From assembly GCA_903905455.1 (NCBI GenBank), contig CAIVGN010000225.1, positions 1 through 64,000 on the forward strand: a stretch of 64,000 nt of DNA, written 5' to 3'. The position numbers and the translations under genes are program-made. Source of the stretch: an uncultured Archangium sp. (GTDB taxonomy: Bacteria; Myxococcota; Myxococcia; Myxococcales; Myxococcaceae). Shown here one piece after another: positions 946 to 49,694 of the stretch. Below the pieces are notes generated by a model, which was not told the origin of the DNA, did not search any database, and was given only the letters and a program-made list of their open reading frames with translations. Position 1 is the stretch's first letter. Each line of letters opens with the position of its first letter.

Positions 946-971
946 CCGCCTCTTCGATGACGGAGAACAGG

Positions 972-1422
972 CATGGGGAGCGCGGGGCGTGACGGGTGCG
1001 GTAGCCCTGCTCAACCCGGGCGTGCCCCTCGATTTGGGGGGCGCTGACGCACCGGGAGGGGCAGGGGGCCCGTTGTTTTCCGACCGTCATCACGGATGAC
1101 CAAGTCGTCATCCCGAGTCTACGCGCTCAAACGTGCGCTGGTGGGTCACGGTCGAAATCCGTGCGTTTGGTGCGGCGGGGACGACGGCACTGGCGTTCGC
1201 GTTTCCACGAGGCGACGTGGCGCGCAGGAGACCCTCTGCGCGGCGGCCGCGGAGCCCGAAAACACGGTCTGTATACCCGGGATTACACATTGGTCATCCG
1301 TGATGACGGTCGGAAACGAGTGGGCCACCACCCTGCCTCTCGTGCGTGAAGCGGGCCCCGATTCGAGGGGCACGCCCGGGTCGAGCAGCGCGCAAGACCC
1401 CCTCACCCCCACGCTCCCCATG
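972..1422. repeat. Long-inverted-repeat element, copy A
   Basis: The ends are inverted copies (CATGGGGAGCG at 972-982 and its complement at 1412-1422). The arms pair along most of about 160 bp, including a perfect 27-bp inverted match between 1077-1103 and 1290-1316. Each inner arm holds the palindrome GTCATC-N3-GATGAC, starting at 1086 and 1293. A related element lies at 49199-49640 with the same 207-bp palindrome spacing, and a third relative at 21651-21953 shares the outer arms. No convincing coding frame runs through it. It fills most of the 540-bp gap between two plus-strand genes. It could be a fold-back/MITE-like element or the gene of a structured RNA. Confidence 0.8.
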
Positions 1423-1487
1423 GCCGTTGCCTTCGCGCCACCCCACGCCGGTTCTTCAGCGGCCCTCGATGAGGTAAGCGCACGCTC

Positions 1488-21582: not shown

Positions 21583-21650
21583 ACCTGTCTTGGATGTGCT
21601 GGGCTGCGCTCGGGCGATGGGACGTCGGCCTGTCCGTGAGCGACCACAGC

Positions 21651-21953
21651 CTGGAGGGTGGTGGGCGTGCAGGGGGCGTGGCCCTGCCCGTCACGCGCGT
21701 GCCCCTCTGCTCCTGGGGAAGTGAGGCCACTTCAAGAGGCGCGTGGGGCGCGGGGGTCTCCCAGTGCCTCATCAAAATTGACAACGACAAGTTGTAGCCG
21801 CAGCGGTTGTCAATTTTGATGACGCACTCGCCGACCCCGACAGGCGCCGCTCGCCTCGAAGGGTGAGTCACCGCGTCACGAGGCGGTGGCGCCGCGAGGC
21901 TGCCGGGATCGAGCAGGGCGCCCAACCCAGTCCCGCCCGCGCACCCCAATGCT
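21651..21953. repeat. Long-inverted-repeat element, copy C
   Basis: The outer arms match those of copy A: the left arm shares GTGGCCCTGC...GCGTGCCCCTC with GTAGCCCTGC...GCGTGCCCCTC at 1010-1040, and the right arm shares ATCGAGCAGGGCGCCCAACCC with GTCGAGCAGCGCGCAAGACC near 1380. The centre differs: instead of the GTCATC palindromes it contains an AT-rich hairpin at 21764-21827. The element covers most of the 460-bp gap between the DUF1801 remnant and the next gene. No plausible coding frame was found. Exact ends are uncertain by tens of bases. Confidence 0.65.
21764..21827. repeat. AT-rich hairpin inside inverted-repeat copy C
   Basis: Arms 21764-21785 and 21806-21827 pair over 22 positions with one mismatch, 17 of them (TCATCAAAATTGACAAC and its complement) in a perfect run. 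The loop is 20 bases. The arms are strongly AT-rich in surroundings of very high GC, so the hairpin stands out as foreign in composition. It is not a typical terminator since no T run follows directly. It could be a recombination or protein-binding site, or the apical stem of a transcribed RNA. Confidence 0.8.
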
Positions 21954-22042
21954 GTTTGAACTCCGGGCGCCATGGCCTGGCCGTGTCGTTTCATCTCAAC
22001 AATTGCTTCTCAACCCATCATCCGCGTGAGACGTCTCGGCCC

Positions 22043-49167: not shown

Positions 49168-49198
49168 GCACGGTCGGTCGCCCACAGGCTCCTCCAGG

Positions 49199-49640
49199 TG
49201 CGTGGGGTTGCTGGGGGCCGGTGCCGTGCTCGACTGCGTGCGTGCCTCGCGACACGACACGGCCGATGGTCAGGTGGGGAGGCGTTGGGCCCGGTGATTT
49301 CCGGCCGTCATCAGGGATGACCAAAGCGTCATCCCGGGTCTACGCGCTGTATGCGTCGCACCGGCGTCGCGGCTGAAATGTGAGTCATTGAGGCTCGGCA
49401 GGCGATTCAATCGAGAACATCGTCAGGCCAGTCCGCCGGGGCCACGGCGGGCGACACGGGCGATCGGCTGCGAGTTGCAAAATGGTGCCCTGTACTCCCG
49501 GGATTACACAGTGGTCATCAGGGATGACGGTCGGAAACCAATGAGCCCCGGGGTGCGCTCCTCGTGAGTCACGGTGGTCCGATGTCGAGGGGCACGCCGA
49601 GGTGCGACCGCTGCAAGGGTCCCCCAGCCCCCGCTTCCCC
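49199..49640. repeat. Long-inverted-repeat element, copy B
   Basis: Two arms face each other around about 190 bp. The left palindrome GTCATC-N3-GATGAC starts at 49307 and the right one at 49514, 207 bp apart as in copy A. Flanking sequence also matches copy A, for instance TCGAGGGGCACGCC (about 49590) and GGAAACCAATG vs GGAAACGAGTG. The outer arms pair with several mismatches. The centre has diverged in sequence but keeps ATCCCGGG and its complement-like CCCGGGATTAC at the same places. No coding frame fits. It fills most of the gap between the protease and the MORN gene. Confidence 0.8.
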
Positions 49641-49694
49641 TTCGGGCCGTTCGGCGCTCCGTAGCGCGCACCCATCGCGTGCTATGCCATCGCC

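Follow-up and report, generated by a model that had tools for sequence, protein, structure and literature searches.

A dispersed inverted-repeat family of an uncultured Archangium and its association with AbiEi/Vsr-like nuclease genes: candidate mobile DNA

What does an intergenic unit built of nested inverted repeats represent in a myxobacterial genome? The question is raised by a locus near the start of the window (the whole 64,000-nucleotide stretch of DNA analyzed), which the first-pass annotation had drawn at 972-1422 and regarded as possibly a new fold-back element or an RNA gene. The first half of that suggestion stood, since the unit belongs to an element family with about 58 sites in this genome and copies in congeners, whereas the second did not: no Rfam match was obtained, and the arms are not maintained for pairing.

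Anatomy and folding of the unit

Copy A, as the unit is called here, lies entirely in the intergenic region bracketed by the genes at 40-945 and 1488-2159. All the coordinates given in the annotation held, and the natural unit proved to be wider than first drawn, comprising 966-1428 (∼460 bp). It is a non-coding element of subfamily III, delimited in a whole-genome search by two matches to a model of the outer arms (966-1062, plus strand, E = 1e-18, and 1331-1428, minus strand, E = 1e-21). The left outer arm (966-1062, +), defined by the arm alignment and the model, has the consensus start ACAGCCATGGGGAGCGCGGG and contains GGGCGTGCCCCTCGAAT; the right outer arm (1331-1428, -) is the same sequence inverted. 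These arms had been described as pairing, which they do imperfectly, with a complementarity in the repeat search of 77% between 985-1045 and 1350-1410 and of 86% between 966-987 and 1407-1428. The inner arms (1064-1122, +, bearing the subfamily III core TTTCCGACCGTCATCACGGATGACCAAnnCGTCATCCCGGGTCTACG, and 1271-1329, -) were 81% complementary in the repeat search. On direct reading, the 27-mers at 1077-1103 (TTTCCGACCGTCATCACGGATGACCAA) and 1290-1316 are perfect reverse complements of each other, as had been claimed, and both GTCATC-N3-GATGAC palindromes are present, the first at 1086-1100 (GTCATC-ACG-GATGAC, GTCATCACGGATGAC) and the second, 207 bp after it, at 1293-1307 (GTCATC-CGT-GATGAC, GTCATCCGTGATGAC). 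The interior spacer (1123-1270) is non-coding and diverged, with its length apparently kept.

Two further copies in the window had been said to share parts of this unit, and both are real. Copy B (49192-49652) is of the same subfamily and has the same 207-bp palindrome spacing. Copy C (21643-21957), for its part, has the outer arms of copy A around a different core, of type II (GTCATCAAAATTGACAAC ... GTTGTCAATTTTGATGAC).

Folded as a single strand, copy A gave an energy of -311 kcal/mol, versus -224 ± 6 kcal/mol in dinucleotide shuffles (z = -13.9, 0/100), an extreme value that only restates its inverted repeats. The proposed check of covariation gave the opposite outcome, as the two arms within one element had a mean identity of 0.666 in this genome, versus 0.673 with the arms of other elements. 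Because complementarity within elements is no better than that between elements, the pairing of the arms is not maintained; they behave as conserved ends and not as a maintained RNA hairpin. Their conservation as sequence would be expected of protein-binding ends or homology arms. That the long hairpin is a structured RNA gene or a regulatory RNA is therefore very improbable: the stable predicted fold and the overall length conserved in subfamily III speak for it, but there is no Rfam family, the two arms of an element do not coevolve, and the similarity of the interiors is near random in some pairs. A structured RNA was accordingly rejected, there being no covariation of the arms and no Rfam match at the gathering threshold in the window.

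Common ends, diverse cores and genomic positions

The outer-arm model (R2) was built as a sequence-only model from an alignment of 16 outer arms, and the whole genome was searched with it. There were 56 matches at E ≤ 1e-3 and 110 at E ≤ 1, mostly facing pairs with 225 to 470 bp between them. The scattered gene-free copies number about 50 to 60; the 451-bp query alone had already matched some 12 places. The annotation had looked to related genomes for further copies, and these were found. With stricter filters, R2 yielded 19, 48, 23 and 13 matches in four of the five congeners and 13 in G018, of a different genus in the same family. The remaining relatives sampled (a single genome for each species, for the most part draft assemblies) had 0 or 1 match each. 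The inner-arm model (R1) gave 12 strong matches in this genome, every one of them within outer-armed elements, and only chance-level matches (E ∼0.002 to 0.1) in 98 relatives; with R1, subfamily III was found in this genome only. The copies of the family are 65 to 75% identical and are old. No plasmid or phage copies of the element were detected at blastn sensitivity. Small tandem groups of elements, some with near-identical units, were seen at C179:9706-10619, C238:64442-65171 and C125:21083-21845 (L146, L147 and L162, respectively). In the open-licence literature, we found no description of such repeats in myxobacteria or of AbiEi/DUF559 nucleases tied to such inverted repeats.

Across the family, the outer arms are ∼80 to 100 bp long, start with ACNGCCNTGGGG, contain GGGCGTGCCCCTCGA and have ACNGCC ends, with conservation setting in sharply at the arm start. 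The cores between them are shorter palindromes or inverted repeats of several kinds. Type I (CTGACGGACTCCGTGG) was seen at 19 fetched loci, type II (GTCATCAAARTTGACAAC) at 15 and type V (CCTATGACAAAATGTAGG) at 7; copy A has a type III core, as do copy B and the elements at C107, C125 and C32 (five elements in all). In the five type III copies, the palindromes are spaced by 207, 207, 207, 207 and 208 bp. Their interiors are diverged homologues with 29 to 53% identity in register, most pairs aligning best at an offset of 0 or 1 base, and the length seems to be kept while the sequence drifts, to near-random identity in some pairs. A conserved coding frame was rejected for this interior, as every frame is interrupted in at least one of the five copies; nor was any nuclease remnant found in the short cores. 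Core sequences almost never occurred away from the arms, while one copy was almost coreless (C238:23186-23323) and others carried internal deletions (C238a, C203 and C125b). In a type III element at C200 (L033, 4432-5391), a further inverted repeat of the TGTCCTCTTTGATGAC type is nested in the interior, a motif also seen in elements of G003 and G002. A gene for a MarR-type regulator lies between facing arms in two species (L260, 2660-3644, and L287, 2681-3485).

According to our own simple gene caller, 44 of 46 elements did not overlap called genes, and elements were enriched between convergent gene pairs (19/46, versus 14/82 for other gaps; P = 0.003). The element start is often 2 to 25 bp from a stop codon. 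Such a preference for convergent pairs and nearby stop codons would suit bidirectional transcription terminators or chromosome-architecture sites that are common by descent. Against this explanation, which we regard as highly unlikely, stand the length of 225 to 470 bp, the heterogeneous cores, the nuclease genes inside some elements and locations that are not conserved across species.

With respect to the latter, only a handful of loci had one flanking gene in common between species, which is about the chance number by our own estimate, and both flanks were never in common, apart from one conserved nuclease locus. In one cross-species pair (L030/L287), an element lies upstream of the same gene. 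The mostly non-matching positions of elements in different species indicate movement or turnover of the family. In G001, G003, G005 and one uncultured Myxococcales metagenome-assembled genome, the orthologue of the gene to the right of copy A is preceded by a gap of only ∼11 to 55 bp that contains no arm-pair element. On the other side of that gap, most of these genomes have different genes from one another, and in none of them is the gene that of the present genome. Because this opposite flank differs, the short-gap loci do not constitute a clean empty site, and no such site with conservation of both flanks was found. The gene that follows copy A has, in G001, the end of a dnaA-like gene immediately upstream of it (L294 and L032). 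The dnaA gene of this genome, in contrast, adjoins a different element (C238:56780-56914), as would be seen if elements marked a rearrangement.

Nuclease genes between the arms

At C133, arms 1.19 kb apart surround a gene encoding a protein with a match to AbiEi_4 (PF13338) and a weak one to REase_MTES_1575 (PF18741), which has been reported as a novel REase of the Vsr type (PMC3710099). Congener homologues of this nuclease were gathered and then scanned with R2, which had been built without any of their arms. Arms were located beside or around the gene in 10 of 11 members of one nuclease clade (100/99 support), versus 2 of 13 in other clades (Fisher P = 6e-4). In four of the genomes, the gene is nested in the order plus arm, gene, minus arm, at distances of ∼5 to 150 bp (G000 C133, G004 C197, G005 C78 and G003 C6), and at G000 C222 and G002 C724 it is flanked by complete elements. 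In the whole-genome match lists, to which this count is restricted, 9 of 35 nuclease genes lay within 400 bp of an arm, versus 0.20 to 0.26 expected (P = 1e-12 to 1e-11). Furthermore, core palindromes located next to nuclease genes are present again in dispersed copies within the same species: that of G000 C222 at 19 loci and, similarly, GGGTAGTTNNAACTACC in G002, CGTACAGCCNGCTGTACG in G003 and CCGGAGCCGGYTCCGG in G004.

Every genome with arms has the nuclease clade. G022 contains two clade nucleases without recognizable arms, and the clade nuclease at G000 C175 has degenerate arms only. One nuclease occupies the same locus in three species (L195/L201, L235 and L237), with arms that are intact in two of them and degenerate in this genome; its flanks, both named by eye, are a purL-like gene on one side and an MBL-fold-like gene on the other. 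This nuclease has been inherited vertically in the three species, so that it at least is not currently mobile. No nuclease gene belonging to the subfamily III core was found, and the link of copy A to the nucleases passes through its outer arms.

The clade protein has ∼305 residues and, as judged from domain matches, consists of an AbiEi-type winged-helix N terminus and a Vsr-like nuclease C terminus. When 10 clade members were compared with Pfam, AbiEi_4 was found in 8 and the MTES_1575 REase in 8, with no other domain; the N-terminal domain also matched the PADLOC AbiEi models. Residues E204, D237, H248 and D250 are invariant in the clade, while sister clades have ExD in place of HxD. A PDB match to 3r3p, which we take to be the mobile intron protein I-Bth0305I, was weak (E = 0.18). 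The DUF559 Pfam search by itself missed relevant proteins, and a plasmid search with the nuclease gave only partial, weak matches, in two plasmids. Inverted repeats of other sequence flank related AbiEi-nuclease genes at L342, L351, L243 and L242 (G022_C42, G023_C285, G005_C123 and G002_C82, respectively). In other genera, inverted repeats also surround some related nuclease genes, not uniformly; they are suggestive in several cases and too inconsistent for generality to be claimed.

The main rival to a nuclease acting on the arms, which we consider rather unlikely, is that the arms originated otherwise, as an intergenic repeat specific to the genus (for example, a REP/BIME-like unit at gene ends), and that the nuclease gene and the cores are separate selfish insertions into harmless spots. 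The proximity to gene ends and the convergent-pair enrichment noted above would agree with it, as would the quite different cores found within the arms, the MarR-type gene occurring there twice, the nested repeat at C200 and the almost coreless copy. It does not account, however, for the near absence of cores off the arms or for the sharing of one core by the nuclease locus and the dispersed copies within a species, and in an all-against-all comparison of element-flanking genes no family but the nuclease recurred across several species.

A less probable alternative is that the elements are ordinary MITEs, left behind as non-autonomous remnants by a conventional insertion sequence with a DDE transposase, the parent of which has been lost or is unrecognized, and that the nuclease association is a by-product. 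Terminal inverted repeats, intergenic location, internal deletions and species-specific positions are all as this explanation would have them. Nevertheless, 55 paired elements showed no target-site duplication, whatever the offset, matching flank words being no commoner in them than in mismatched pairs; no transposase gene lay between the arms of the inspected copies, nor was a parent DDE transposase with the same ends seen in the fetched arm-bounded loci; and the nuclease statistics would be left unexplained.

Possible mode of spread and comparison with known systems

The reading that we prefer, and to which we give about an even chance, is that copy A belongs, as a non-autonomous member, to a mobile DNA family with terminal inverted repeats, spread in trans by the AbiEi/Vsr-like nuclease via break and copy. 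The outer arms would be the terminal inverted repeats, recognized as DNA sequence; the copies with a nuclease gene between the same arms would be the source, with the short ones, copy A among them, as passengers. The protein would most likely bind the arms and/or the palindromic core and cut there, and repair of the break by copying another member of the family would spread elements and cores in trans, in the style of REPINs on a RAYT. Spread would thus proceed by cut-and-copy and not by cut-and-paste, a route chosen because there is neither a target-site duplication nor a conventional transposase beside the arms. Both this route and the action of the nuclease on the arms are what we infer from sequence comparison. 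A wider proposal, held more tentatively and at somewhat less than an even chance, is that MITE-like inverted-repeat elements may be spread by a fusion of a Vsr-type nuclease with an AbiEi winged-helix domain, with no conventional transposase involved, and that every nuclease lineage may have a matching palindromic core of its own.

If this is true, the gene for a nuclease with a DNA-binding domain of the toxin-antitoxin type can serve for mobility, and the AbiEi/DUF559/MTES_1575 proteins, which are numerous and for the most part unexplained, would gain a testable role. It would also account for a repeat family in one myxobacterial genus of which we found no description.

Like MITEs and ERIC-like intergenic repeats, the elements are non-coding and intergenic, with terminal inverted repeats and internal deletions; unlike MITEs, they lack target-site duplications, and their cores are of several unrelated palindromes. 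The order of the invariant residues of the clade, E, D, H and D, recalls that of the EDxHD homing endonucleases (PMC3943268). With these Vsr-like enzymes, such as I-Bth0305I, the clade also shares the coupling of a nuclease to a DNA-binding domain, but here there is no intron or intein, the N terminus is an AbiEi winged helix and dispersed inverted repeats are associated. AbiEi is described in one source as binding inverted repeats (PMC7319586). The N-terminal domain resembles the AbiEi antitoxins of type IV toxin-antitoxin systems in its matches to AbiEi_4 and the PADLOC models, and differs from them in being fused to a nuclease domain.

To our knowledge, most dispersed intergenic bacterial repeats have no known motor, REPIN-RAYT being the main worked case; if the reading preferred here is correct, the present family would provide a second, unrelated pairing of a repeat with a cognate gene. 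In both systems, as judged from the published organization of REPINs and the REP-associated tyrosine transposase (PMC3116915 and PMC8049555), dozens of palindromic repeats are dispersed between genes, inverted pairs form the spreading unit (spreading in our case being deduced from positions) and decayed single units occur. In both, the repeats also flank a cognate gene of low copy number, here the nuclease, with at least one cognate locus vertically inherited, and the repeat types are species-specific. In contrast, the arms described here measure 80 to 100 bp, versus ∼20 to 60 bp for REPs, and have ACNGCC ends; genes lie inside the arms in four cases; and the linked gene encodes an AbiEi/Vsr-like nuclease, according to Pfam in 10 clade members, and not a Y1 HUH transposase. 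The parallel with REPIN-RAYT is close in organization, while membership fails on the enzyme and on repeat size.
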